Positions 1,004 to 25,034 of a DNA stretch of 26,151 bases are shown one piece after another. The stretch's first letter is position 1. Each line of letters begins with the position of its first letter. The DNA comes from a virus. Under the pieces are notes generated by a model. The model was not told the origin of the DNA. It saw nothing but the letters and a program-made list of their open reading frames with translations, and did no database searches. The DNA lies in the IMG/VR virus record IMGVR_UViG_3300030333_006401, positions 1 through 26,151 of that record; one strand, given 5' to 3'. The translations under genes were made by a program, and so were the position numbers.

Positions 1004-4000
1004 TTACCTTATTACTTTTAACTTCTTAGTAGTATCTGAACCACCTACATTGATTGTATAAGCTGGTATTTTTGGTGATGTATCTAATTCTTTATCAAAT
1101 CTTGGTGGATTCGAACCATCATTTTGTGTTCCTTTGTAAATAAGATTTACTAATGTATCTTTACTTGTTCCAACCTTAAAATAGTGATTTATTGGATAGA
1201 AAATTTCACCATTTGATGAACTAAAGAAAAGTGTTCTACCGACCATTCTACCATCTACAGTTGCTGGATTTACTCCAAAGTGAGAGGTGTAGGTATATCC
1301 ACTTCCACTATCCACATAATAACGATTTCCAAAGTGTCTAAAGTTATCGTGATGATTGAAAGGTTGTTTAGCGTTTACACCAGTTCTTTTTTCATAAGCA
1401 CCACTTACAGGAAAAAACTCTTCTATATCACCAATTGTTCTAAAATGAAACCTACTTTCGTACTTGTATGTGTTGTAATCACCATCGTTACCAGGATTAC
1501 CAGATTTAAAGAAAGTCTGATTTGAACTACTACCATGATTCTTAAAAAACTCGTTTTTAGAACCAAGAAGTAAATTTGTAAAATTACTCAAAGTTATGTT
1601 GAATATAGTCTGATTTGACGAATCACTTAAATTAACAACATCTAATGGAGCAGAATAATTTGTGTGAACTTTATCATTAGCAGTAGATGTTATGTTAACT
1701 TCATCAGTAAGTACATTTATTGTTTTTTCTTTTAAATTTTCATTAGCAAATCCCGATACAGAAAATTCATCCAATGGTACATCAATAGATTTTTCATATT
1801 TGTTTTCATTAAAATTAAAACTAACAGTTGGTTCTGTTAAATTAGTTGAACCCTCAGCTTTATTAGGATTAAGTTGTGTTTGTAAAGAAGCCTTTTTTAT
1901 TTTTGGTCTAAACAAAGTATCATTTTTAACTTCGTATGAAAATTCAAGTTTAGTTTTTGCTGGTAAAAGTTTTTCTATTTTTTCTATAAATTCAGGATCA
2001 TCTGTGTGATTTTCTATAGCACTTAAATTCTGAACAATATCAGTTTGTATTTCTCTTTCTTGTATGAGTTGTTTTCTTAAAGTTAAAAGGTCATCGTAAA
2101 TTCCATTGTTGTCATAATCATCTAAGTAATCATCTAACTTAAAATCAGCCATAGCGTTAAAAACTATCGAATCTATAGCATCCACATAAGAATAAGATTT
2201 TCCTATTTTGTTTACTACTTCAACCTTTGGTTCATTAGTACCTGATTTTACAGGTTGTTTTATAGATGAAACCTTTGAATTTAAAGGAGCAACAACTTTG
2301 AAATCAGTACCTATTTTAGTTTGTTTGTTACTCTTTACATCTTCTTTACCACCCCTAACCTTAAAAGCAAAATTCTTAACGGTAGAAACAGCTCTTTTTA
2401 TAGTTAGACTTTTTTGGTCGGAAACAGTTTTACTAAAATCTTTTACTTTACTCGGAGACGAAATATCTTTAATCGTAGTAGCATTATTATTTTCATTTAA
2501 CCTATAATGATATACCAAATTATCTCTTGGTGTTGTTACTGAACCACCGACCACACTATTATAATTTAAAATATGTTGTTTAAATTTTGACATACTTATG
2601 TAAGCATCCCAAGCTCTTATCTCACTAATTGAACCAGTAATCTGTTCACCAAATAATAAATTGTCACTTGTTTGACCAGAAGCAGTTATATAATTTTTGT
2701 TAGCAAGTGACGAAGTTACTGACATACTTATGTGTTGTATATCCTTTATAGCATCACTATCTTTTCTACCAACAAACATGTGATATGATTGAGTTAACTC
2801 CGTAGTCTCTGTTATTATATCTCGTTGTACTAAAACATTGTAGAACTTAAAGTCGTTCAATGTATCTATAAAATCAGTAGACATAGACACTTCATTTGGA
2901 GCTGAAAGTGCACTACCAGCATGTTGACTTGTATTTAATCTAAATTCTAATTTAGCTTTTGTATTAGAAGAACCTGATGGTACTATTCTCAAATCCCAAT
3001 TATCATTTGAACCACTTGACCTAATAAGTTTTTGAGTATTGTTAGTATTTGATGTTCTAAATATAAACTCAACACCATTTGGTTCAGCGTCATTTGACCA
3101 CCAATCTAAAGTAAGATATTCTGAGCCAGATGAAAGATTTAATGAACTAAAAGGTTCTGTATGTTCTACAAATGAAACATTACCTTTTGTATTATTTAAT
3201 CCTGTTTCTATATCATTTTTAGCATCATTAGTAACAACACTTGGATTATGTTCGTCTACTGAACCACCGAACTCTGTTAAAGAAAATCCGTTAGTATTGT
3301 ACCCATAAAGATTTAGTAATGTATTAATACTCTCATGAGTTCCTTTTGTTTTGTAAACATAAATTACATTGTTTAAAATTTTAGTCCATAAAGAAGCGAT
3401 AGCTTTTTTATCACCAACTTCATCTCCACGAGCCGATTCTAAATATTCTTCTAAACTACCAGAAAGTGGGTTTTTTAAATCAAATCCAATTGTATCACCT
3501 ATTAATGGCAATAAATTGTCTGGCATAGAATTTGGATTCTTATATCCTAATTTATATATCTTGTGATAATTGTCTATGTAACTCCTTAACAAATCAAATT
3601 GTTCACCCAACATATTTACAAAGTCACGAAGAACTTTATGTTCTTCACCAGTTCTTAATACAGTCGGTAAGTTATTTACAAGTGAATGGATATTATCATT
3701 ATCATAATTATTTGCAATAGTTTCCATTGTATTGTACCAACTATTCCACTCTGACGAACCAGCATAACTTCCACTTGGTGGTCTGTAAACTTTTGAGAAA
3801 GGATGTATGTTAGTTGGATTATTTTTTGTCACTACTACATTTGTAAAAAAAGATGTTTTATTACCAGTCTCTTCGGTGAACACAGGAAATAAATCACCTT
3901 GTGGTAATATTGAACCTGTAAAAACACTTGAATCATCTATTGTTCTGTCACTTTTCATTCTTGATGGAAAATAATATGGAGCAAATGCACCTTGATCCAT

Positions 4001-5632
4001 ATCCATAATTCCATAAGCAAACCCATCACCTACAGAACCACTTATAGAAGCAGAAGCTACATTTGAACCACTTAATATTTCCCAAGATGTAGAAGTTGAA
4101 CCATAACTTTCTTCACCATTTATTAATCCAAATAACAAACCACCTGTTTTAGTTGGTCTAAAATATTGTTGTTTTGCCGAAAATATGTATCTTTTATAAT
4201 TTGAACCTGTTGATTCTGTATTTACTATAGCAGAACCACTCCAAGCATTATGTGGTATATTTCTACCACTATTATAAAGGTAGTTACCTAACTTTGTTGA
4301 TGTTGAATTGCTGTCATATCTTTCGTTAGCTAACCCACCACTAATGTTTAGACTATATTCACTTACAGCACCACCACCTCTTAAAAGAAAAGATAAATAA
4401 AATTCATCGTCTGAATTATAAAAGGGTGGATTTTCTACATTGTATAAATCTGTAAATAAATGAACAAATCCATTGTGTCCTTTTTTATAAACTTTATCAA
4501 AACCCTCACTATCTTGTAATGTATTTTCCGTAGTATGAGTGTATCCATTTTGTGAACGGAAAAAATTATTACCAGCAAGATTTACACCCACACCAGGTGC
4601 TGAAGAAGTAGAGTAACTTTGTCCATCGTTGTACATGAAATGTTCATAATGGGTAAACTCATCTTCTATTTTTCTTACTTCTTTAAATAAATCTTTTCTT
4701 TTTTCTATAACTTTTAAACTACTTGAAAAGGCAAGAGACTGACTTATTTGATTATATAATCCCTCTAATCTTACAGCTTTGTTTTTAAATCCTTGTAGTT
4801 TAGATTTTGCCGAACCAAAGAAAACATGTTCGTCAAATTTTTCATAATCTATATTTAGATTAAGGTCTTTTTGTTGACGAGTTATTTCCTCTACAATATT
4901 TAATCCAGAGGAACCAGTAATATTATTAAAGGTATCATACCCATCATCAATTTGATTAGGTTCACTAAGATATGATTCATCAATTGTTAATCCCAATCCA
5001 CTTATAGAAAGACCTTCTCGGTCAATAAAAAATATTGTTTCTGTCTGTGTAGATAAAAATTTATTTGATATATTAAAATTAGTTGATAATGCTGGTATAT
5101 CAGATGGTAATGGTTGATGTAACTTTATAACTAAAGTTTTTTTATTACCAGTTACATTGTCAAACGCATAACCATTGATTGGAATCAAACGACCTTCTGA
5201 TAGTTCTAAGTAAGAATTAAATTGATATTTACCTTCTTCATCTTCTTCTGTCATAAATTTTACAATATCAGTTTCATCTTCTATTGTGCCATTTACGATA
5301 CTTAATCTTATCTCTTTTCTACTTGGGGATATTTCAGATATGTGAAAAGCACTCGTGTCTAATCTAATAATAAAATCATATTGTAAGTTATAGTTACCTT
5401 CACTATATCCACTTCTGTCTAAGTATTCGTTTGGTTTTAAAAATAATTCATTTTCTTTTACATAAAAATCTCTACCCTCTTCTAAATCAATCGATACTTG
5501 AAAGGTATTTACCTCATTGAATAATGATAGTTTTACGACATGAATTTCAGAATTAAAATCTGATAAAACATATGCCTCATCTGAAGACATAAGTTGTAAA
5601 GTGTTATTGTTATATGGTTGTAATATTTGCAT
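1004..5632 (-). CDS. GpI/gp7-like baseplate wedge protein with LamG-like domain (1542 aa)
   Basis: Residues about 640-785 resemble the tail protein I (P2 GpI/T4 gp7) family: a helical stretch with NLPTVLR, the LLPLIGDTIGFDL segment, and the IYVYKTKGTHESINTLLNLYG segment typical of its end. In T4, gp7 joins two gp6 copies to make the wedge core. Here gp6 and gp25 are in the same operon, which supports the call. Residues about 815-1060 look like a LamG/concanavalin-type beta-sandwich (WWSNDAEPNGVEFIFRT to EIRAWDAYIS...LVYHYRLNE). A charged, probably helical stretch follows at about 1160-1225. Three degenerate 20-22-residue repeats lie at about 1280-1341. The C-terminus has VDGRMVGRTLFFSSS...EIFYPINHY. 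The ATG at 5632 overlaps the upstream TAA by one base. The N-terminal 600 residues are unrecognised. Confidence 0.75.
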   Translation of the reverse strand: MQILQPYNNNTLQLMSSDEAYVLSDFNSEIHVVKLSLFNEVNTFQVSIDLEEGRDFYVKENELFLKPNEYLDRSGYSEGNYNLQYDFIIRLDTSAFHISEISPSRKEIRLSIVNGTIEDETDIVKFMTEEDEEGKYQFNSYLELSEGRLIPINGYAFDNVTGNKKTLVIKLHQPLPSDIPALSTNFNISNKFLSTQTETIFFIDREGLSISGLGLTIDESYLSEPNQIDDGYDTFNNITGSSGLNIVEEITRQQKDLNLNIDYEKFDEHVFFGSAKSKLQGFKNKAVRLEGLYNQISQSLAFSSSLKVIEKRKDLFKEVRKIEDEFTHYEHFMYNDGQSYSTSSAPGVGVNLAGNNFFRSQNGYTHTTENTLQDSEGFDKVYKKGHNGFVHLFTDLYNVENPPFYNSDDEFYLSFLLRGGGAVSEYSLNISGGLANERYDSNSTSTKLGNYLYNSGRNIPHNAWSGSAIVNTESTGSNYKRYIFSAKQQYFRPTKTGGLLFGLINGEESYGSTSTSWEILSGSNVASASISGSVGDGFAYGIMDMDQGAFAPYYFPSRMKSDRTIDDSSVFTGSILPQGDLFPVFTEETGNKTSFFTNVVVTKNNPTNIHPFSKVYRPPSGSYAGSSEWNSWYNTMETIANNYDNDNIHSLVNNLPTVLRTGEEHKVLRDFVNMLGEQFDLLRSYIDNYHKIYKLGYKNPNSMPDNLLPLIGDTIGFDLKNPLSGSLEEYLESARGDEVGDKKAIASLWTKILNNVIYVYKTKGTHESINTLLNLYGYNTNGFSLTEFGGSVDEHNPSVVTNDAKNDIETGLNNTKGNVSFVEHTEPFSSLNLSSGSEYLTLDWWSNDAEPNGVEFIFRTSNTNNTQKLIRSSGSNDNWDLRIVPSGSSNTKAKLEFRLNTSQHAGSALSAPNEVSMSTDFIDTLNDFKFYNVLVQRDIITETTELTQSYHMFVGRKDSDAIKDIQHISMSVTSSLANKNYITASGQTSDNLLFGEQITGSISEIRAWDAYISMSKFKQHILNYNSVVGGSVTTPRDNLVYHYRLNENNNATTIKDISSPSKVKDFSKTVSDQKSLTIKRAVSTVKNFAFKVRGGKEDVKSNKQTKIGTDFKVVAPLNSKVSSIKQPVKSGTNEPKVEVVNKIGKSYSYVDAIDSIVFNAMADFKLDDYLDDYDNNGIYDDLLTLRKQLIQEREIQTDIVQNLSAIENHTDDPEFIEKIEKLLPAKTKLEFSYEVKNDTLFRPKIKKASLQTQLNPNKAEGSTNLTEPTVSFNFNENKYEKSIDVPLDEFSVSGFANENLKEKTINVLTDEVNITSTANDKVHTNYSAPLDVVNLSDSSNQTIFNITLSNFTNLLLGSKNEFFKNHGSSSNQTFFKSGNPGNDGDYNTYKYESRFHFRTIGDIEEFFPVSGAYEKRTGVNAKQPFNHHDNFRHFGNRYYVDSGSGYTYTSHFGVNPATVDGRMVGRTLFFSSSNGEIFYPINHYFKVGTSKDTLVNLIYKGTQNDGSNPPRFDKELDTSPKIPAYTINVGGSDTTKKLKVIR
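1610..1795 (-). repeat. Degenerate 20-22-residue repeats within the gpI-like protein
   Basis: The encoded residues about 1280-1341 contain three related units: EKSIDVPLDEFSVSGFANEN, EKTINVLTDEVNITSTANDK and a weaker TNYSAPLDVVNLSDSSNQT. They share the pattern (E)K-[ST]-I-[DN]-V-x2-D-E-[FV] followed by a Ser/Thr/Asn-rich end, with a period of about 22 residues. The repeat is visible in protein but diverged in DNA. Confidence 0.55.
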
Positions 5633-9761: not shown

Positions 9762-12700
9762 TTATCCAACATTAATTACAGTTACTTGACCTGTTTCTGC
9801 ATCACCAGCATCTCTTATTCTTCCCTTACCACTACCAGGTCCGTCACCACCTATATTATGTACGATGTAATTTTCAGCAATATAAGTGTGTGTATTTTCA
9901 ACTTCAAAATTAAATGTATCAACTATAGAGTCGACTGCTTCTATAGAATCTATTCTAACTTTTGTTAAGTCTCTATTATATAAATAATCACCAACAGATA
10001 ATTTATCAGCTAAAGGCCAATCATATTGTGACCTTCCGTTGGTATCGGCTAATATAGCATGGTTGGTCGTTACTTTCATTACACCATTAATAATTAAATA
10101 TCTTCCATAAGATAAATGTTCTGTACTCGGTGGATGAAAGAAAGTTTGAACTACCTTGTTACTAACAATCTGTTTTGTCTCTTCGTCATATGACATTACT
10201 AAATCATCAACTTTAATCTGTTCTATAGGTTTAAGACTACCATCTGCCATTGTAATCATAGTCCCCCTTAAGAAACAAGTACCACCGCCAGGAGGATCAT
10301 CAGGATCGTATGCGGACATTATAGGTCTTATGTTTATAGTAGTTGGACTTGAATTAGCATAATTAGAAACATTTGTTATTACAGTATTATTTATATCTAT
10401 AGTATTTGGTATGGTGGTTGAACCATTGTAAGTATATCCTTGTACAAGGAATCCATCAGCAGCTACGGTTAAAACCGTATCAGGATCTGCAGTAGTTAAT
10501 GTGTCACTCGTTTGATTGTTTTCGAATTGATATGTAGCATCACTTACATTATTTCCACTTGTTGTTTGTGGTACTAAAACATTAAGGGTGACATCATATA
10601 GTTCTGGTTCAGAATCTCCAGCATCAGTAAAAATATAATTAGCTCTTAATTCAATATTTAAGTCTTCATACAATTCAGAATAATAAAGATTATTAATTTG
10701 AACAGTAGTATTTGGATTGTCGGTTTGTTCTACAAAAACTGGTGATTGACTCGGATTGATACCTAATTCCCAATTTACAAATTCAAATACATTGTCATCA
10801 GAACCTTGTATTTCAATAGATTGATTATCACTATTTAAAGTAAAAGTTTGATTTACACTTGGAGTTAAACTTGCACCACCCTCACCTGATTGTGGATTTT
10901 CATTATATTCAATTCTCATAGTAATGTTAATATTAGGAGATATGTTAGCAAAAGTTCTGAAATTATTTTGACTAAACTCATTCTGATAATCCATCCAAAC
11001 TGAATTTACAATATCCGAACTCGTAAAAGGATCGAATGGAACAGTATCAGGTAAATAAGCTTTTACCCTTATTCTAAATTGATATTCTCTGTCTTCTATA
11101 TAATTACTTTGACTACTATCAAATCTATAAGTTGCCGTTTCTTCACCAGTATATTGATAGTTAATTAACCCAATCTGTTCCCAATCGGTTAAACCGCTAG
11201 AACTATAATATCTAGCTTCAATTTGATATTTTATTATTGTAGATGCCGTACTTGCGTTTAGAAAATTCCAATTTAGTGGACTTCCAGTTTCAAAAATATT
11301 ATTGTTTACAAGTTCTGTAGGTATTAAATGACTCCAATAAAAATCAACAAAACCAAAACCACCAATAAGAGTAAAATTATCAATTTCATAATCAATTGAA
11401 TAATTATAATATCCATATCCAGCAGGAGTATACATAGGTGATGGTATTTGTTTTGTCGCCGCTTGTAAATTAGGATATTCATATTCTGTGTGAGCATTAG
11501 AATCATAATTTATAGAAGTAGGTGTTACTGAACCATAGTTTATTAAATCAGGATTATACTGAACCCAAACGAAAGCACTAAATAAAAGTTCATCTGAACT
11601 ATACCCTTTTACATTTACAGCATAATTAGGACCTTGATACCATTCTGGTGCTTGAAGAAATGTTTCTGCAGCATTCCAACTAGCGTTAAAATTATTACGA
11701 TTTATTATCTGATTGTTTGTCGGTGCTCCAAAACCTGACCATTGTACAAATTCTAAATCATCATAAATACCTAAAGGATCGTCAAAGGTAAATGACAATC
11801 CTACAATACCAGCCACATCTGCCTTATAGTTTATGGGATGGTTTCCACCAAAATCTATAGCTCCACCTGAAGCATAAAGACCTGGTGTATCATCTCTTGG
11901 TTGTACGACTGAAAATGTACCCTCTCGTGTAATGTTAATTGTAACTGGTGGTGCTAGATTAGGCATTTGACCTGGCACTTGCACAGCAATAATCTCATCT
12001 CCTATTGTTTCAATCCAATACCTTTCGTTTCCATCTCTATCTTGGTCAGGATTATCAGGATTTATATCTACAATCCCATCGTCAAAATTACGAAAATCTG
12101 ATTCAGCAAGTGTGTCTGTGTAATTTACCCTTCGTATTCTATACTGATAAATAGCACCTGGTAAAAAGTCATGTGGACTTTCAATACCTTCGTTATTTGC
12201 CTCTTCATAAAATATGTTGGATTCATTTGGAATCGGTAAACCCGTTGATGAATCAAAATTACCTGGCAGTAAACCATCATCGTAGAATGAAAAATTACCC
12301 ACACTTTCAGATTCTAACGCACCTGGTAAGTCACCATATTGGTCGTATTTAGCTGCAATAGTTAATGACCTATTTCCTTGTACACCCCCTTCTGAAAATT
12401 CGTCTAAAATGTGAAAATCATTTTCTCTTCCATCACCACTTTGTGACCAATTAAAACGACTTGTAAATGAACCAAACTGCCCATACGGAAATATGTTTTC
12501 AGCATCATCACCATAATGTTGTTCATTGTAATATTCATCATCACTTCTTTTCCACAATAGTTCAACCCAATCTGTTTCTGGCACTATTAAGTTACCACTA
12601 TCATCATATATCGGCAATCGTTTCTTTTGTATTTCCCAACCAAGAAACATTTTGCCATTGGAATCAAGTTGTTCAAATATCGGTGACGGGTCTATATCTA

Positions 12701-15632
12701 ATTGTAGTAAAGCACCAGCAGGTCTAGGTCCTCCTAATATCGGTGACAATGAATCATTTGCTTCAAACCAATCTAATGTAACTTCTCCTGTAAGACCTGT
12801 TCCCATTCCGTATGTATTCACCTCTTTAATAGGATTCCAACTACTCCAATTAATTTGGCTTGATTGTGGATTACTCTCGTCCCAAGATGAATCACATACT
12901 CTACAATGAATCTGATATAATTTATTAGGTTCTAACTGAAAATTTCCTGTAGTAACAGTAGTTATAAATGTAGGTGGAACTCCTGATTCAGGTGTCCAAT
13001 CAGGATCCTGTATCTCTTGTACGACAATGTTTTCGTTACTTTTTATCTCATGTCTGTAAAAATCAAACTGATTACCATTGGGTGCTACATATTTTCTAAC
13101 ACCATTTTCTGAATAAAAATGATATGATGCCTGTGTATCAACATCGGTAACTTTGAAATGATATACACCAAACCCATCTTCAAATCCAATATCAGAGTAA
13201 CTATCAGCGTTAATAGTAACACCAGAATCCGTTGTTGCATTTACATTGTAATGTACAGCCTCAAGTTGTATTTGGATGTAAGGATAATCTCTATCACCAA
13301 ATGTTAAATTTTCTTGACCAATATCAAAGAACAAAAGTGAATTTGGATTGGTATTACCAGTTGGAACACTTTGTCCATTTTCGTTCATATTACCCTCACC
13401 TTGCCAAAACAAAGAAAAGTTTGCTGGAATCTCATCTGTTACAGGTCTGATAGGAAAGATTGTCACACCACCACTTCTGTTTCCTAAATTATCTTCTGTG
13501 TAAATATTATACAGATAATCCCTTTGGTCAAGATTACTATCTTTAAAAGAATAAACAAAATTATTACCATCATCACTTGTACTATATACAGCTCTATTAT
13601 TACCAACATCAGCTAATATTAGTTCAGTTCCATTTGTGTATCCATCCGAATCATCAAATCTTTCAATCACAACCCTTTCCATATCTCCAGCAATATTAGA
13701 TATTTGCTGACCATCTATAGATGTTGTTCTCCATGTTAAATAAACTTCATCAAAGTCAACACCTTGTGTTGGAAAAACATCACCATTAAAAGTAAATACA
13801 TCTAAAGGTGGAGTGATATCAATCGATTCAAATACAGCAGTAATGTTATAATTCTGCACTATTGCTTCGGTTAATCTATATTGGTTTTTTATTGCCGATG
13901 TCCCATCGTCTAATTGAAATTCTTCTGTTAGTATGTTTTCTAATTCTACTACACCACCATTTTCATCTATAAATTTTTCAAGAACCACTTGTTGCCAATC
14001 TCCTTCCCTAGCACCTTCGGGTGATAATTCTTGTCCAACATAACCATAACCATAAATTATTTCTAAAATAATTTCGTTGTAACTTTCATGATTAGTAGTT
14101 GTTGGTGCTATCATATTTGGATTACTTAATGTTGTAAATGTTACAAAATCTGACAAAACAAAATCAAATGGTGTCCCTTCGGATGGTTGAAAATTTACAA
14201 CAGCATCATTTCCAAGTGAATCATTCTCACCACCTATGTTAAGAGTTACATCAAAGTCAAACAAACATGAACCATCGTCAAAATTAGCATCTGGATTAAA
14301 ATTGGTTGAGCGTTTACCTTCATTGTTAATATAAGAATCATCAATAGATCCTGTAGCTATCGTACACCCAAAAAGATATCTGTCAACATCATCGGTTGGT
14401 GTTTGATAGGGAGATAATATTTCCATGAACGGTGAAGAGATTTTAGCATAATCAACTTTAGATAGAGTGTCTAAAATACTTAACCTATCAAATAAATTTA
14501 TCTTTTCTATATTACCTAAGTCTACTTTATCAGTTGAGAAGTCTATGGGATTTACACCCACCATATTATACATAGATTTTATAAGAGCAGAATTTTTACT
14601 TAGTCCACCTACGGATGCAAAGTTTTCATATTGAAAAAAGTTAAGGTCATAATTAACAGAAGCATTTAAAAGTATGTTTGTTTGAAATCTCTCCCAAGTT
14701 CTTAGTTGTGTACCAAAACCACCAACTTGAAAGACCACACCAGTAATGGAATAGTAACCAGGTTTTTTATATCTATGTTCAAACAAAGTGGTTGATTCTA
14801 ATAACTTTGGTTTATCCGTATATTCTACTTCAGTACCATCACCCCAATTTAGCTTAAATATGTACAACCCATTACCATCGTAAGGACCGTCATTCCGAGA
14901 GGCAGATGTACTGTTATTACCAGTTATCATTACATCAAAAAAGTTTCTTCCACCATCTCTTGTTCTTTTATCTCTCCTTGAAAATATATCTATGTTTTCT
15001 CTTTTTTCATCTAATGGTGACCTACCACTAAGTCTTGGTGATAGATAAAATTTTATTTTACCTTCTGTTGCTAAATTATATTCTGTAGGATTTATTTCTT
15101 TATCGTAGTATTTATCAATCGGTATTATATCATCGGTTTCAGGATTAACTACAAATGGCAAAGCATCAATTGACCAATAAAATGTTTCGTTTACATTTGA
15201 ATTTTCCCCATGTACACTTGACTCTGTAGTTAAGGTTACAGGACCATCTAATGTATCTTTTATTATAGTCGGTTTTGTTTTGAAATTATTTTCACCTATG
15301 TATTTTGACAATTTTAATTCGTCAAAATTATTTTGTTCCCAAGTTAATCTATCATTAAGTGTTATAGTTCCCAAGTCTTGTCTATCATCATAACTAACAT
15401 AGACCTCTGTACTACCACTCTGTCCAGCAAGTGGATGAGTTTCTCCCTCTTGAGGATGTGTTTGAGGGTAAACAGTAAAAGGAAATTTAGGATTTTGATA
15501 CAACAAGTCCCTACCCCTATCAGGTTGAAAAACTTGTAAGACAGTTGACACTTCAGGATTACCATCTAAATGATTTGGTCCTCCTACAGATTGTTCTACT
15601 TGTATCTCTTCTGCTGTTTTGTATTTAGCCAT
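9762..15632 (-). CDS. Giant multidomain virion protein with PKD, FN3-like and C-terminal Hint domains (1956 aa)
   Basis: This is the largest gene in the window. Reading along the protein: a PKD-like domain at about 230-325 (LNWGDGT, then FEHRYKKPGYYSITGVV); a motif at about 422-456 of the GCT...NFNPDANFDDGSCLF type, found in many marine surface proteins; a FN3-like beta-sandwich at about 605-730; and several further beta-rich modules. Segments with FVQWSG and FVNWELG resemble InlB-B-like repeats, the second near residue 1650. A Hint (intein-like) domain fills residues 1786-1926. A 30-residue Gly-rich tail follows. There is no signal peptide, as expected for a cytoplasmically assembled phage fibre. 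The ATG at 15632 lies 7 bases after the upstream stop. I infer a host-recognition or peripheral baseplate fibre that may process itself. The family names come from motifs; the overall role is inferred. Confidence 0.75.
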   Translation of the reverse strand: MAKYKTAEEIQVEQSVGGPNHLDGNPEVSTVLQVFQPDRGRDLLYQNPKFPFTVYPQTHPQEGETHPLAGQSGSTEVYVSYDDRQDLGTITLNDRLTWEQNNFDELKLSKYIGENNFKTKPTIIKDTLDGPVTLTTESSVHGENSNVNETFYWSIDALPFVVNPETDDIIPIDKYYDKEINPTEYNLATEGKIKFYLSPRLSGRSPLDEKRENIDIFSRRDKRTRDGGRNFFDVMITGNNSTSASRNDGPYDGNGLYIFKLNWGDGTEVEYTDKPKLLESTTLFEHRYKKPGYYSITGVVFQVGGFGTQLRTWERFQTNILLNASVNYDLNFFQYENFASVGGLSKNSALIKSMYNMVGVNPIDFSTDKVDLGNIEKINLFDRLSILDTLSKVDYAKISSPFMEILSPYQTPTDDVDRYLFGCTIATGSIDDSYINNEGKRSTNFNPDANFDDGSCLFDFDVTLNIGGENDSLGNDAVVNFQPSEGTPFDFVLSDFVTFTTLSNPNMIAPTTTNHESYNEIILEIIYGYGYVGQELSPEGAREGDWQQVVLEKFIDENGGVVELENILTEEFQLDDGTSAIKNQYRLTEAIVQNYNITAVFESIDITPPLDVFTFNGDVFPTQGVDFDEVYLTWRTTSIDGQQISNIAGDMERVVIERFDDSDGYTNGTELILADVGNNRAVYSTSDDGNNFVYSFKDSNLDQRDYLYNIYTEDNLGNRSGGVTIFPIRPVTDEIPANFSLFWQGEGNMNENGQSVPTGNTNPNSLLFFDIGQENLTFGDRDYPYIQIQLEAVHYNVNATTDSGVTINADSYSDIGFEDGFGVYHFKVTDVDTQASYHFYSENGVRKYVAPNGNQFDFYRHEIKSNENIVVQEIQDPDWTPESGVPPTFITTVTTGNFQLEPNKLYQIHCRVCDSSWDESNPQSSQINWSSWNPIKEVNTYGMGTGLTGEVTLDWFEANDSLSPILGGPRPAGALLQLDIDPSPIFEQLDSNGKMFLGWEIQKKRLPIYDDSGNLIVPETDWVELLWKRSDDEYYNEQHYGDDAENIFPYGQFGSFTSRFNWSQSGDGRENDFHILDEFSEGGVQGNRSLTIAAKYDQYGDLPGALESESVGNFSFYDDGLLPGNFDSSTGLPIPNESNIFYEEANNEGIESPHDFLPGAIYQYRIRRVNYTDTLAESDFRNFDDGIVDINPDNPDQDRDGNERYWIETIGDEIIAVQVPGQMPNLAPPVTINITREGTFSVVQPRDDTPGLYASGGAIDFGGNHPINYKADVAGIVGLSFTFDDPLGIYDDLEFVQWSGFGAPTNNQIINRNNFNASWNAAETFLQAPEWYQGPNYAVNVKGYSSDELLFSAFVWVQYNPDLINYGSVTPTSINYDSNAHTEYEYPNLQAATKQIPSPMYTPAGYGYYNYSIDYEIDNFTLIGGFGFVDFYWSHLIPTELVNNNIFETGSPLNWNFLNASTASTIIKYQIEARYYSSSGLTDWEQIGLINYQYTGEETATYRFDSSQSNYIEDREYQFRIRVKAYLPDTVPFDPFTSSDIVNSVWMDYQNEFSQNNFRTFANISPNINITMRIEYNENPQSGEGGASLTPSVNQTFTLNSDNQSIEIQGSDDNVFEFVNWELGINPSQSPVFVEQTDNPNTTVQINNLYYSELYEDLNIELRANYIFTDAGDSEPELYDVTLNVLVPQTTSGNNVSDATYQFENNQTSDTLTTADPDTVLTVAADGFLVQGYTYNGSTTIPNTIDINNTVITNVSNYANSSPTTINIRPIMSAYDPDDPPGGGTCFLRGTMITMADGSLKPIEQIKVDDLVMSYDEETKQIVSNKVVQTFFHPPSTEHLSYGRYLIINGVMKVTTNHAILADTNGRSQYDWPLADKLSVGDYLYNRDLTKVRIDSIEAVDSIVDTFNFEVENTHTYIAENYIVHNIGGDGPGSGKGRIRDAGDAETGQVTVINVG
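9855..10277 (-). other. Hint (bacterial-intein-like) domain coding segment
   Basis: It encodes 141 residues, 1786-1926 of the 1956-aa protein. It starts with CFLRGTMITMADGSLKPIEQ, the classic intein block A (Cys1, G-T, then DG). It carries the TTNHAI block B (TxxH) and ends with NTHTYIAENYIVHN, the block F/G pattern with the terminal His-Asn. The residue after Asn is Ile, not Cys, Ser or Thr. There is no homing endonuclease, as the domain is only 141 residues. Known chemistry of the family predicts an N-S acyl shift at Cys1 and Asn cyclisation, so cleavage is more likely than ordinary splicing. Confidence 0.85.
14265..14369 (-). other. GCT...NPDANFDDGSC motif segment
   Basis: Residues 422-456 of the 1956-aa protein begin with GCT and end with NFNPDANFDDGSC. 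The two cysteines are about 33 residues apart. The motif is a short, probably Cys- or metal-stabilised module that I know from repeated surface proteins of marine bacteria. Its single copy in a phage fibre is a hint of module exchange. Confidence 0.5.
14658..14945 (-). other. PKD-like domain segment
   Basis: Residues about 230-325 of the 1956-aa protein carry the hallmarks of a PKD domain: an F-x-L-x-WGDGT strand followed by HRYKKPGYYSITGVVF, the H-x-Y-x3-G-x-Y-x-[IV]-T signature. PKD domains are Ig-like folds used as spacers or binding modules in extracellular proteins. Confidence 0.7.
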
Positions 15633-18022: not shown

Positions 18023-19117
18023 TTATGTCCTCAATATAAATTCAAAATCGTTATCGTAGATTATCTCCTGACCATCATCATGGTTGACCTTTATCAAAAT
18101 CTTGTAAGCACGATTAGGTTCAAAGGCATTTAGGTCTTGTTTAAAATAGTTAGAAGTCGTATCACAACTCATCGTTGTGTAAGCACTAAATGGAACAACT
18201 GACTCGTTTGTCGCCATGTCTATGATAGAGTAAGAACCTGAACTATGTGGTATAAAACTACCACTTACAGTTTGAACTGATGTTGTAAATGATTTTTGTA
18301 TGTATCTTTTACGAGCACCAAATCTAAACTTAACAGTTTCGTTTTCCTTGTATGCTTCTCTAAAATGTATTGGATATAAATAGTTTTCACTATTACCACT
18401 CACATCTAAAGAAGTTAAACTACCTGTATTTGAGCCAGTTGCTGGTAGATGGTCATCCCATTTAAGTTCTAATTTTGGAGAATAAATGGTGTTAGTTTGT
18501 CTTGAGAAAAATTTAAGGTCTTCAAAACTACCACTTGATGTTTCTCTACTACCAGAAAGTCTAAGTAGCACACCATAATTATTGTTAGTCGAGTTAAACC
18601 ATTTTTTAGCAATAGTTGTGATGTCCATGTTGATATCAGGCGACTCAGATGAAAATGCCTGTGTAACTTCATCTCCAGCAATATATGTACCACCCGCAGT
18701 AGCCCATTGTATCTCAGAAGCTCCTTCTCTGTTTTGTCTAAACTTCCAACTACATCCATCTGTTGTTTTTGGTTCGTCCAACTCTTTACCTACACCCTCA
18801 TCCCAAGATTCACTTATAGGATAAGCAGCGATTGTATAATCTTCACTTAAACCACTTGTACCTTCCGTTTCGTATAGTCTAAGATTAACTTTATAATCAT
18901 TAGGTAAGACAGATGAACTAATATAGTTTTCCATGTCGGTAGTATTAAATTGAAGAAGAACACGAGTTGGATAAGAAAATGCCCTATCAAAAAATACTTT
19001 TTTTAATTCAAGTATTTCGTCTTGACCCGTATTCTTGTCTTTGAAATCTTCGCCCGTAATGGAATTTGAACCACTACTAATAAAGGCATCTTTGGTTGTA
19101 AAAAAATATCTATGCAT
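18023..19117 (-). CDS. DNRLRE-like virion protein (364 aa)
   Basis: The first 225 residues fit the DNRLRE beta-domain pattern: KDAFISSGSN near the start, then RVLLQFNTTDM, then ISESWDEGVGKE and DGCSWKF, then QWATAGGTY, DITTIAKKW, NNYGVLLRLSG and PKLELKWDD. These domains occur in large extracellular and cell-surface proteins. The last 130 residues are a second beta-rich module without a clear name. The ATG at 19117 overlaps the TAA of gp6 by one base, so translation is probably coupled. Lying directly after the gp6-like gene, it may attach to the wedge, in the place where T4 has gp8 to gp10, but this is inferred from position only. No membrane segment or signal peptide is present. Confidence 0.7.
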   Translation of the reverse strand: MHRYFFTTKDAFISSGSNSITGEDFKDKNTGQDEILELKKVFFDRAFSYPTRVLLQFNTTDMENYISSSVLPNDYKVNLRLYETEGTSGLSEDYTIAAYPISESWDEGVGKELDEPKTTDGCSWKFRQNREGASEIQWATAGGTYIAGDEVTQAFSSESPDINMDITTIAKKWFNSTNNNYGVLLRLSGSRETSSGSFEDLKFFSRQTNTIYSPKLELKWDDHLPATGSNTGSLTSLDVSGNSENYLYPIHFREAYKENETVKFRFGARKRYIQKSFTTSVQTVSGSFIPHSSGSYSIIDMATNESVVPFSAYTTMSCDTTSNYFKQDLNAFEPNRAYKILIKVNHDDGQEIIYDNDFEFILRT

Positions 19118-21042
19118 TATATCACTTTTCCATATATGTCATTGTTAGGGTTTCTTAATTCAAATACCGCTGGAGCAACTGATGGTCTGTATACTCCATT
19201 TTCATCCAAGGCTTCAGCAAAGTTATATTCAAATCCATAATCAGTTTCACTACCATTTGTAGTTCCATCAGCTCTATAGTAATAAAGTTGTCTACCAGTA
19301 GCATATTCATCATTACCTATTTGAAATAATTCTAATGTTTTTATACCAATCACTCCATCCAAACCTAAAATATTATACCTTAAATCATTCATGTTTATTG
19401 ATTGTCTAAACTGCATTTTTTCTATTTTGAAAAAATCTTTTATCTTATCAATAACATTTAATTTAACTTCAGTAGGATTAAATCTTCTATCATAGTTTAC
19501 GATAAAACGAACCCCAAAATTTATTATGTATGCTGAATATAATGTGTCATTTAATGTAAATCCAAAATCAACTATATCATTCACCATTCTAAATTGATTT
19601 AAATAGGTCGCAACATTTTGTAATACAAGTCTTGGAGTTTGTACTAATTTTTTACTTTGGTTGTACGAAAGTGTAGAAACTAAAAGTGTACCAGCATCCA
19701 TTCTTTCCACATGAGCTTTAGCAATACCACCGAACTTTGGTGGTAAACTTAATATTCTAGCAGCATAATCTTCTTTTGTCACACAACGGAGTTGTGATGC
19801 AAAAAACGCACTGGCATTATTTTTTATCTCGTCTACAGTTTGTCCATCAGTTCCACCAACACCTGGCTCGTCATTAGTTACAGTTATTGATACACCTGCT
19901 GGAGCATTATTTACAGTAGTTAATTCACCAACTTGAACATTGGAATTAGCACCACCACCTACTCTATATGTAAATGTTAATATAGTGTTAGCTGGAGCCT
20001 CACCTAAATTAAAATGATTTTCTATACTACCACCAATAGCACTTCTAGTTAAGTCTGTCATGTTTTGACCATTGATTGTAACACCAGCTTGTTCTACCAT
20101 TTCAGCATTAGAACCAGAGTTACTAAATCTAAATAAACCATTACCAAATTGTACTTTATAAGTTTGAGTATCTTCATCAAATTTACTCGTAAACTTTTTA
20201 GCAACTTTAATATATTCAGCTACATAAGGAATTGGTATGGGTGATATCGAACTCTCATCTGGTCCTTGGTTATAAGCATTGTTACTTCTGTTAGCGTCAG
20301 CATCAGTATAGTAAGTTTCCTTTAATACCTTTTCTTGTGCTAAGTAATCAACCTCATACCATTTTTCTCCTGAAGAATCTATACAATTTAATATTTCGAT
20401 TACATTAGATTCACCTAAATCTATTTCTAAAAATTTAGTTGGACTTGTTATTGTAAAAGATTTAGTTTTAGTTTTACCAGACACAGCTCTTACATTTCTT
20501 GTAAGTATGTATTTTTCAGCTTCACCATTATCGTTTAAGATTGGAGCACTTACAGCAGGATCACCTGAACCACTTGATGTGAAATCAACTTCTTCGGTAG
20601 TCTCAAATAAAATTTCACTATCTACACTCGAAGCAATTTGTAATCCACTATCTATCGGAGATGGCGCTTCACCATACACTGGTTGACCTGTAGTTCCGTC
20701 TGCACTAATTGTTGTTTGTACTTTTAATTTTACAACAGATGGAGTTGTGTTTGGTGATTTATATCCAAGAAACTCAGATAATCTACGGACATTTCTCTTC
20801 TCTGTCGCAGTAGTTAAAATATTTTCTTTGTAATTATAATCAATATAATAAGAAAGGACATCACCAACATAACTTGTCAATTCTATCAACATCATGCCAG
20901 GTGATGTCTCGTTGAAATCTTTATATGTATCAGGAAAATAAGATTTAGTATATTCAATTAAATCATTTTTTATTGAACTAAAATCTTTACTTGTATATTG
21001 TACATTCGTTGGTTTTAATTTTTGTTTTTCTGTATATGCCAT
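19117..21042 (-). CDS. gp6: Baseplate wedge protein, gp6/GpJ-like (641 aa)
   Basis: The N-terminus has TSKDFSSIKNDLIEYTKSYFP, then DFNETSPGMMLIELTSYVGDVLSYYIDYNYKENIL, then TEKRNVRRLSEFLGYKS. This is the signature opening of T4 gp6 and P2 GpJ-like wedge proteins (PD..E.SPG..LIEL.AYVGD.LSYY.D....E..L). The rest contains the typical KDEIKNNA-type and TKEDYAARI segments (DEIKNNASAFFASQLRCVTKEDYAARILSL, given here as parts). gp6 dimers form the continuous inner baseplate ring. I start the gene at ATG 21042, one base after the gp25 stop, because GGAG lies 9 bases upstream. A frame-matching ATG at 21057 inside gp25 has no ribosome binding site. The length fits the family. The downstream gene overlaps its stop. 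Confidence 0.92.
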   Translation of the reverse strand: MAYTEKQKLKPTNVQYTSKDFSSIKNDLIEYTKSYFPDTYKDFNETSPGMMLIELTSYVGDVLSYYIDYNYKENILTTATEKRNVRRLSEFLGYKSPNTTPSVVKLKVQTTISADGTTGQPVYGEAPSPIDSGLQIASSVDSEILFETTEEVDFTSSGSGDPAVSAPILNDNGEAEKYILTRNVRAVSGKTKTKSFTITSPTKFLEIDLGESNVIEILNCIDSSGEKWYEVDYLAQEKVLKETYYTDADANRSNNAYNQGPDESSISPIPIPYVAEYIKVAKKFTSKFDEDTQTYKVQFGNGLFRFSNSGSNAEMVEQAGVTINGQNMTDLTRSAIGGSIENHFNLGEAPANTILTFTYRVGGGANSNVQVGELTTVNNAPAGVSITVTNDEPGVGGTDGQTVDEIKNNASAFFASQLRCVTKEDYAARILSLPPKFGGIAKAHVERMDAGTLLVSTLSYNQSKKLVQTPRLVLQNVATYLNQFRMVNDIVDFGFTLNDTLYSAYIINFGVRFIVNYDRRFNPTEVKLNVIDKIKDFFKIEKMQFRQSINMNDLRYNILGLDGVIGIKTLELFQIGNDEYATGRQLYYYRADGTTNGSETDYGFEYNFAEALDENGVYRPSVAPAVFELRNPNNDIYGKVI

Positions 21043-21043
21043 T

Positions 21044-21514
21044 TTAATAAGCTCCATCAGTTATTGTTGTGGTGCCAGCACCTACACCATCAAATGTAAC
21101 TTGAACACTCTCTAAACTATTAGGTGCTCTTTTTATATTAAATTGTATGTTAATATTAACTTGACTTAGTTCGTCTCTTCTTTCTATTTCTATATTTTTT
21201 AATTCTACAAAAGGTAACCATCTTTCAAAAGTATCTACGATGTTATTTTCCATTTGTATTGTTAAGTTTTCGTCCAATGGTTCAAATAAAAGTTGTCGTA
21301 AATTCATACCTAAAGCCGGTTGAAATACCCTTTCACCAGTATTAGTTTGTAAAAGAAGTCTGATATTATTTTTTATTGAATCTACAGTTGTCTTTGTAGT
21401 TTTAAAATATCCATCACCATTTGGAACTCTACCAAAAGGAAAGTCGATTCCTACAGAGACTCTTGTATCTTGGTCTTCTACAAATCTATTTTTTTTTCTG
21501 TCTAATATTGCCAT
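21044..21514 (-). CDS. gp25: Baseplate wedge protein, gp25/GpW family (156 aa)
   Basis: The sequence fits the GPW/gp25 family. It has IDFPFGRVPNGDGYFKTTKT near the start, a DSIKNNIRLLLQTNTGERVFQ helix and turn, and then GMNLRQLLFEPLDE. That last stretch holds the conserved E-P dipeptide of the family's EPR-type motif, with Leu in place of Arg. After it comes an amphipathic helix (NNIVDTFERWLPFVELKNIEI) and a beta hairpin. gp25 is a core wedge protein that in T4 contacts gp6 and the sheath. It lies immediately upstream of gp6, an arrangement common in contractile tails. The ATG at 21514 overlaps the TAA of the preceding gene by one base. Length matches the family. Confidence 0.93.
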   Translation of the reverse strand: MAILDRKKNRFVEDQDTRVSVGIDFPFGRVPNGDGYFKTTKTTVDSIKNNIRLLLQTNTGERVFQPALGMNLRQLLFEPLDENLTIQMENNIVDTFERWLPFVELKNIEIERRDELSQVNINIQFNIKRAPNSLESVQVTFDGVGAGTTTITDGAY

Positions 21515-24061: not shown

Positions 24062-24769
24062 TTACACTAAAGAACCTGTATATCTTAGGTTATCTATGTG
24101 ACCTCTTGTAAGCACTTCTTCTTGGATTTTAGGATATATTTTACGGAATGTATTCGTAATCTGAGTTATTTTAGATGTTTTCACATCTGTCATCTCACGA
24201 ATCATTATGTATATTGCCTTTTTATTAAAATTATCTATACTATCTTTGTTCTTACATAGATATAATATAGATTCAGCAATATCTCTATCTTGTGGTTTTG
24301 GAAATAATACCTCTATATTTTCATCAAAATAATCGATAGTTTTTTTAAAAACTTCTACAGATGGATTCTTGTTTATATTTTCATCTTCATCACCATGTCC
24401 ATATAAAACATCGATGTCGTCATGTATCTTCATCTTCTTGTAGTTGGCATTATTATTTAGGATAAGATAATTCTTTGCTACTACAGAGAAATAACTAAAT
24501 GCCTTACTTCCTTTAGTTTCATCAAACTTATGCATGTTGATAACAAGGTTAGAAACTACCTCTTCTTGTAAGTCTCTAAACCCATAACTAAAATAACTAA
24601 ACTTAAAAGTATTAATTATATTTTCTGCCAACTTAAGAAATGCAGCATGTATCTCTTCAGTATAAATTTTGTTTCGTTCTATTGGACTTTCACAATGATT
24701 ATACCTTACAATAGCATCATGTACTGGCGTACCAAAATAAACTTTACTTTTCTTTCGTCTTTTTTTCAT
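24062..24769 (-). CDS. gp55: gp55-like late sigma factor (235 aa)
   Basis: After a very basic start (MKKRRKKSKVYFGTPVHDAI), residues about 48-108 carry a sigma region 2-like segment: DLQEEVVSNLVINMHKFDET, then FSYFSVVAKNYLILNNN. This matches the T4 gp55 family pattern (LxxEVV.N.....KFD..KG..AFSYF..VAKN). T4 gp55 recruits host RNA polymerase to late promoters with the sequence TATAAATA. I start at ATG 24769 because GAGG sits 9 bases before it; a TTG at 24778 is a weaker alternative. The gene overlaps the upstream membrane-protein gene by 26 bases. It lies just before the baseplate module it would turn on. No region 4 (the -35 binding domain) is obvious, as expected for gp55, which relies on a partner clamp instead. 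Confidence 0.85.
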   Translation of the reverse strand: MKKRRKKSKVYFGTPVHDAIVRYNHCESPIERNKIYTEEIHAAFLKLAENIINTFKFSYFSYGFRDLQEEVVSNLVINMHKFDETKGSKAFSYFSVVAKNYLILNNNANYKKMKIHDDIDVLYGHGDEDENINKNPSVEVFKKTIDYFDENIEVLFPKPQDRDIAESILYLCKNKDSIDNFNKKAIYIMIREMTDVKTSKITQITNTFRKIYPKIQEEVLTRGHIDNLRYTGSLV

Positions 24770-25034
24770 TTTCTTCAACCTCGGTTTCGAATAAATTTTC
24801 TAAGTCTTTTCCAAGTTGTTTTATCTCCGTAAAGAAAAAACCAACCTCATCATCTGATTCAAATGTACCTTTATCGTCTATTACTTTAAGTTGAAGTTTT
24901 ATTGATTCTACTGTATTGCTTATGTTTAGTATTATGTTTTCGTATGCATTGATACGGCGTAATGCGTAAAAAGTCACCACACCTGAAAGGATAGCGACAA
25001 TTCCTAATATGATTGTAATAATTAAATGTAACAA
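24744..25034 (-). CDS. Small one-TM protein with coiled-coil tail (96 aa)
   Basis: The reading frame holds no ATG near the start, and the only other start codons (GTG pair at residues 19-20) would cut the hydrophobic helix, so I use TTG at 25034. It follows the TAA of the 47-aa ORF directly. Residues about 2-26 form one membrane segment (LHLIITIILGIVAILSGVVT), then RR, then a long charged helix and a Glu/Lys-rich end (EVEENEKKTKEK). The RR after the segment predicts the C-terminus in the cytoplasm. The end overlaps the sigma factor gene by 26 bases. It could be a lysis or membrane-associated accessory protein, but I cannot assign a family. Confidence 0.6.
   Translation of the reverse strand: MLHLIITIILGIVAILSGVVTFYALRRINAYENIILNISNTVESIKLQLKVIDDKGTFESDDEVGFFFTEIKQLGKDLENLFETEVEENEKKTKEK

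Follow-up and report, generated by a model that had tools for sequence, protein, structure and literature searches.

A LamG-like module inserted at a fixed junction of a probable GpI/gp7-type baseplate wedge protein

What does a lectin-type fold do on a baseplate wedge protein? The question is raised by a 1542-residue protein, the product of an open reading frame at 1004-5632 (-) in a 26-kb IMG/VR virus record (IMGVR_UViG_3300030333_006401), whose analysed stretch of 26,151 nucleotides is called the window here. The original prediction placed a wedge-type GpI/gp7-like domain and a LamG-like domain one after the other in residues 640-1060 of this protein (window 2453-3715), and proposed that a carbohydrate-binding module might thereby sit directly on the baseplate wedge, merging core and receptor functions in one chain. 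The domains of the protein, their order, the operon and the pattern of insertion of the LamG module are described below. The parts of the protein and its conserved neighbours are as follows.

1004..5632 (-): probable GpI/gp7-type baseplate wedge protein with LamG module, 1542 aa (open ORF; relatives)
5015..5632 (-): N-terminal β-rich domain, aa 1-206 (predicted strands, pLDDT mostly 74-86)
4628..4915 (-): conserved helical hairpin region, aa 240-335 (helices 275-299 and 306-324)
3776..4627 (-): β-rich stretch, aa 336-619 (predicted strands, low confidence)
3233..3757 (-): GpI-type wedge domain, aa 626-800, with NPNSMPDNLLP and KTKGT motifs (P2 GpI profile match)
2357..3190 (-): LamG/concanavalin-A-like module, aa 815-1092 (predicted sandwich; Foldseek and VIA-align)
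1883..2230 (-): conserved helical domain C1, aa 1135-1250 (HMM anchor on the 3' side of the LamG insertion)
1007..1882 (-): C-terminal part, aa 1251-1542 (short repeats in 1251-1370 and a conserved end, 1371-1542; low-confidence model)
21044..21514 (-): gp25-like wedge protein (GPW_gp25, 48.2 bits, cut-off 27.2)
19117..21057 (-): gp6-like baseplate wedge protein, 646 aa (PHROG baseplate wedge families, best E 1.4e-21)
18023..19117 (-): 364-aa conserved operon protein (5' of the GpI gene in 177 of 195 loci)

Scanned alone against Pfam and PHROGs, the 1542-aa sequence gave nothing useful, and a search of PDB sequences with the protein and with long alignments found no relative. Matches to His_kinase and Cytadhesin lay far under the cut-off and were set aside as chance. 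AlphaFold modelled residues 590-1542 poorly as a whole (mean pLDDT 51.9) and the N-terminal part at a mean pLDDT of 58.0; the latter has no convincing fold in the PDB (Foldseek probabilities <0.4; best Z 5.3), and what it most resembles in BFVD are phage proteins that are unnamed or uncharacterised. The helices of aa 240-335 may be core-bundle helices. The β-rich stretch of aa 336-619 is mostly missing, as an alignment gap, from the proteins of Microcystis phage Mel-JY01 and LR756508. Repeat segments of the NENK-EKSIDV-TDEV type are visible by eye in residues 1251-1370 (window 1523-1882, -).

Relatives are numerous in viral contigs and rare among phage records. Thirteen close loci of the 1542-aa protein were found in viral contigs. 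An alignment-based scan confirmed 125 relatives, the best 80 of which were kept; a scan headed by the GpI domain of a Flavobacterium phage protein confirmed at least 585, of which 80 were kept, and 21 loci came from a scan with the full-length Flavobacterium phage protein. Only six of 50,697 phage records hold a relative: Mel-JY01, an uncultured 484-kb phage and four records of Flavobacterium phage immuto. The window's own protein as the query found two of these six, Mel-JY01 and the 484-kb phage. The gp6-like protein matches 59 phage records; those matched over 97% or more of the query number six, and they are the GpI-protein records just named.

The wedge-type domain predicted inside the 1542-residue chain is borne out by profile comparison. 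Residues 626-800 are predicted to be helical, with low to moderate confidence (local pLDDT about 42-70); KTKGT stands ahead of the final helix, and a strand follows that helix. Their family profile (A8, 34 sequences) was compared with a profile built from P2 GpI plus ten diverse relatives, and it matches GpI positions 36-112 at 91.9% (E 7e-7), against 0.1% for the reversed GpI alignment and 0.8% for the best of 30 column-shuffled decoys. By eye, the two share a motif, KNPNSMPDNLLPLIGDTIGFD in the 1542-aa protein and WNPDTCPANLLPWLAWAFSVD in P2 GpI, followed by KTKGT and HKGT, respectively. Curated models respond below their cut-offs: TIGR02242 ("phage tail protein domain") matches the window's domain at E 9.4e-5 but at 22.5 bits misses its cut-off of 51.85, and PF09684 reaches 9.2 bits on the window protein and misses 20.6. 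Among the 34 relatives, weak matches are given by TIGR02242 in 12, by PF09684 in 11 (best E 0.069) and by TIGR01634 (tail_P2_I) in one. Because aa 626-800 stay under the PF09684 and TIGR02242 cut-offs, they are called here a distant GpI-like homologue outside these curated models.

The GpI-domain family profile matched no related solved structure among the PDB sequences, its matches to hexokinases (E 0.12-0.13) and to one designed protein (E 2.1) being regarded as chance. GpI relatives were also absent from the fold matches of the residue 590-1542 model; this says nothing about the GpI fold, because LamG structures took the whole list. Comparison with T4 gp7 was not significant (0.2-1.3% for the family profile by hhalign), and the test is judged insensitive because T4 gp7 and GpI themselves miss each other as well (0.1%). 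A KG motif near T4 gp7 residue 738 lies opposite K763-G764 of the 1542-aa protein in this non-significant alignment. The LamG profile did not match T4 gp7 by hhalign.

A lectin-type fold after the wedge domain, the other half of the prediction, is likewise present in the model. Residues about 819-1092 were modelled as a β-sandwich, with many blocks at pLDDT 70-91. The sandwich resembles LamG/pentraxin/ConA-like structures: Foldseek gives E 2.5e-5 to a neurexin LG domain at 13% identity, and VIA-align gives Z 17.0 to PAPP-A (rmsd 3.7 over 206 aligned residues), with LamG-type matches at Z 16-17. At the sequence level, Pfam including Laminin_G_3 did not match the window's own LamG stretch, and Laminin_G_3 was found weakly, with E values up to 1 and a best of 9.3e-5, in the LamG stretches of 14 of 34 relatives. 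The LamG profile hits neurexin among PDB sequences at E 0.00028 for the whole sequence, the best single domain having an independent E of 0.18. Two outcomes were looked for as speaking against the prediction, a lack of any GpI/gp7 fold match for residues 640-785 and a lack of a sandwich in 815-1060, and neither arose.

The invariant LamG columns, G1000, R1006, W1008 and H1020, lie within GSISEIRAWDAYISMSKFKQH, where E1004 is conserved at 94%. This stretch resembles the scaffold motif typical of LamG_3. The alignment columns of LamG showed no invariant acidic cluster, a statement about sequence columns only.

Some relatives are without the module. In the immuto protein, the GpI domain is followed after 47 residues by the helical domain C1, which in the window comes after LamG. 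A census of 195 GpI-bearing ORFs gave 174 with both anchors, GpI and C1; the remaining 21 had no C1 match and were left out (nine with LamG and 12 without). LamG is present in 99 of the 174, with GpI-C1 gaps of 315-477 residues, mostly 320-350, and absent from 75, with gaps mostly of 43-52. The predicted domain pair is shared by many relatives, although 99:75 is not to be read as a frequency, because some contigs are present twice among the 195 ORFs, with different locus ids, and the queries were drawn from both LamG states. The census HMMs derive from the family itself, and finding its members is therefore partly by construction; the gap-length classes are independent of the LamG HMM. The same two classes appear in 67 representatives (24 with LamG, 43 without). 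Gaps of 121-142 seem in most cases to reflect partial C1 matches, and the long gap of one LamG-minus row, L280, is due to a FISUMP insertion within GpI. L013 and L045, which have broken reading frames and no C1 in the census, were excluded from the alignments, and L093, L040 and L043 are cut by contig ends. LamG is thus a discrete insertion, roughly 290 residues long, whose site is always the point where the GpI domain meets a conserved helical domain.

On a tree of the GpI and C1 domains (67 rows), the LamG state changes once (SH-aLRT 98), and none of 500 shuffles gave so low a number. This change may be a gain or a loss; with midpoint rooting, used for drawing only, the LamG-minus clade appears as a single loss. 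Cultured phages occur in both states: Mel-JY01 (WWT39511.1) has LamG and immuto (YP_010114574.1) lacks it. An association of LamG with additional genes lying between the 364-aa gene and the GpI gene was considered and dropped, because the intervals of the LamG-plus clade L298-L317 are short, as in the LamG-minus clade.

The genomic setting is that of a baseplate operon. In the window, the genes for gp25, gp6 and the 364-aa protein are followed on the same strand by those for proteins of 793, 1956, 240 and 1134 aa and then by the gene for the 1542-aa protein. The Baseplate_J match of the 646-aa gp6-like protein is under the cut-off. A gp6 gene precedes the GpI gene on the same strand in 167 of the 195 loci (85/108 LamG-plus, 82/87 LamG-minus), and gp25 lies upstream in 125 (55/108 and 70/87). 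The 364-aa protein is upstream in 93 of 108 LamG-plus and 84 of 87 LamG-minus loci and is 75-93% identical among close relatives where found; it belongs to no recognisable family, and hhalign detected no similarity to T4 gp6-gp11. Elsewhere in the window, the product of 24062-24778 (-) matches the PHROG "late sigma transcription factor" (E 1.5e-6).

The 1542-aa protein is conserved over 97-99% of its length at 43-70% identity in 22 of 22 loci examined. In those loci, the matched length is 26-37% for the 1134-aa neighbour and 13-50% for the 1956-aa neighbour. Because these two are matched only partially while the 1542-aa protein stays full-length, they look more like host-range genes. Within the protein, median identity between the window and its close relatives is 81% for the GpI domain, 79% for aa 240-335, 59% for aa 336-619, 64% for LamG, 68% for aa 1251-1370 and 82% for aa 1371-1542. 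The 1956-aa baseplate-cluster protein (9762-15632, -) has a Hint domain near its end, at aa about 1785-1926 (PT-HINT 31.4 bits, cut-off 27.7), suggesting self-processing near the C-terminal end.

Modules of other kinds occur in the protein of single relatives, the FISUMP and BACON-like ones at places other than the LamG junction. L280 (3840-7031) carries a FISUMP (Fib_succ_major) domain at 138.9 bits that splits the GpI domain between its two halves, and L236 carries a BACON-like stretch at 24.9 bits against a cut-off of 25, each in one contig. Weak intein-like C-terminal ends are found on the GpI proteins of L236 and L287. In the one contig L272 (3828-7685), a stretch with a YYYCGNHPNMGG motif at the LamG site looks cupredoxin-like by eye; Pfam gave no match on L272, L270 or L283, among the six of ten listed long ORFs that were scanned. 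The presence or absence of the LamG insertion, together with the FISUMP and BACON-like modules, indicates that the wedge subunit is a scaffold with removable modules. A bolder extension is a long shot. In this very large and almost uncultivated family, the wedge subunit itself would then be a modular adhesin scaffold, with LamG, FISUMP, BACON-like and perhaps cupredoxin-like modules at defined sites by or inside GpI or at the C-terminus; the wedge would sense surface contact and transmit it straight to the gp6-GpI core bundle, with no separate fibre.

Taken together, the 1542-aa protein is probably a GpI/gp7-type wedge subunit of a contractile-tail phage, in which LamG is a fixed-site insertion, presumably carried on the outside of the wedge, and most likely serves as an auxiliary contact module. 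By analogy with GpI, gp7 and XM1 gp17, the GpI domain (aa 626-800) would form each wedge with two gp6-like subunits. The gp7-like part, as in XM1 gp17, T4 and eCIS structures, would lie laterally and bind fibres or spikes, and LamG would be held on the wedge exterior from the GpI-C1 junction. From there it may make auxiliary contacts, either weak binding of cell-surface glycans in adsorption or docking of a tail fibre, and would not be the main host-range determinant.

The protein could instead be a tail fibre or adaptor that merely contains a GpI-like segment, with another gene supplying the true gp6 partner. The great length of the chain, its variable N- and C-terminal modules and the lack of a significant T4 gp7 match would suit such a protein, and the operon also encodes the conserved 364-aa protein; however, the GpI profile match, the full-length conservation and the regular co-occurrence with gp25 and gp6 make it improbable, and none of the T4 wedge proteins tested resembles the 364-aa protein. 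Equally doubtful is the idea that LamG is the main receptor-binding part, uniting core and receptor functions. What stands of the original proposal is that a GpI domain and a lectin-type fold share one chain in a gp25-gp6 operon, and a wedge protein of phage Vp4 that bears carbohydrate-binding modules (CBMs) does bind cells (PMC11406892). A primary receptor role is nevertheless disfavoured by the slow, single-event history of the module on the tree, by scaffold-like invariant residues, by the many relatives, a whole clade, without LamG and by the large, faster-changing 1956-aa and 1134-aa neighbours, which are more host-range-like.

LamG domains are sometimes purely structural. A LamG that binds no ligand, and braces adjoining wedges or supports the C-terminal region, is a real though lesser possibility, nearly as likely as auxiliary contact. 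It fits the vertical descent of the module, whose state changes only once on the tree, the invariant residues in the apparent scaffold motif without an invariant acidic cluster, and the retention of the module in phages with widely differing neighbour genes. Against it stand the absence of LamG, mostly unreplaced, from a large clade that includes a cultured phage, its median identity of 64% where the GpI domain has 81%, and the adhesin-type modules that occur on this protein in single relatives. The auxiliary binding role is favoured because FISUMP and BACON-like modules occur in the same protein and because the Vp4 wedge protein with CBMs binds cells. Receptor or carbohydrate binding by the LamG module is plausible.

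These findings give a likely function, that of a wedge subunit, to proteins called hypothetical in the annotated phage records checked. Since many relatives have the core part either with or without LamG, the role of the insert can be tested: the same subunit exists with and without one lectin-type module, in cultured phages of both kinds, and what such a module adds can be asked. gp7-like subunits connect fibres to the trigger of sheath contraction.

In the open-licence literature, as covered by titles and the starts of abstracts, no published description of LamG attached to a GpI/gp7-type protein, or of the plus/minus pattern of this fusion, was found. Laminin_G_3 and ConA-like domains are reported on virion proteins of jumbo phages, where they are tied to tail fibres and other components (PMC7824862); the word "baseplate" was not found in its text. 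Wedge proteins that bear lectin-type modules have been published before, namely Vp4 Gp119 and AlgoCIS Alg11, so that the arrangement has precedents. Gp119 of the Bacillus phage Vp4 is a baseplate wedge 3 (BW3) protein that carries carbohydrate-binding-type folds and binds cells, and its relative Gp177 of Deep-Blue, 341 aa compared with 831, is listed without such a fold (PMC11406892). Gp119 differs from the present protein in being matched to A511 gp105 rather than GpI, in having CBM16-type rather than LamG folds and in having measured cell binding (PMC11406892). In AlgoCIS, Alg11 and Alg12 are wedge proteins with large extra domains; Alg11 contributes two CBMs to the spike cage, and the gp7-like part of Alg12 is termed an evolutionary hotspot and binds fibres (PMC8894135). 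AlgoCIS is, in contrast, a bacterial contractile system with its CBMs on Alg11, and the available text describes no LamG beside a GpI domain (PMC8894135). XM1 gp17 is involved in spike attachment (PMC10457771). Compared with P2 GpI, a stand-alone protein of 176 aa, the GpI-like domain lies mid-chain in 1542 aa and falls under the curated cut-offs; the contrast with a small GpI drawn in the original prediction holds in that respect but is milder than stated, as T4 gp7 itself has 1032 aa. With T4 gp7 the protein shares a long chain that adjoins gp6. With P2 GpI and R2 pyocin Tri2, the solved GpI relative (PDB 6u5b), it shares the NP..P..LLP and KGT motifs and the place of its gene after the homologues of gp25 and gp6.
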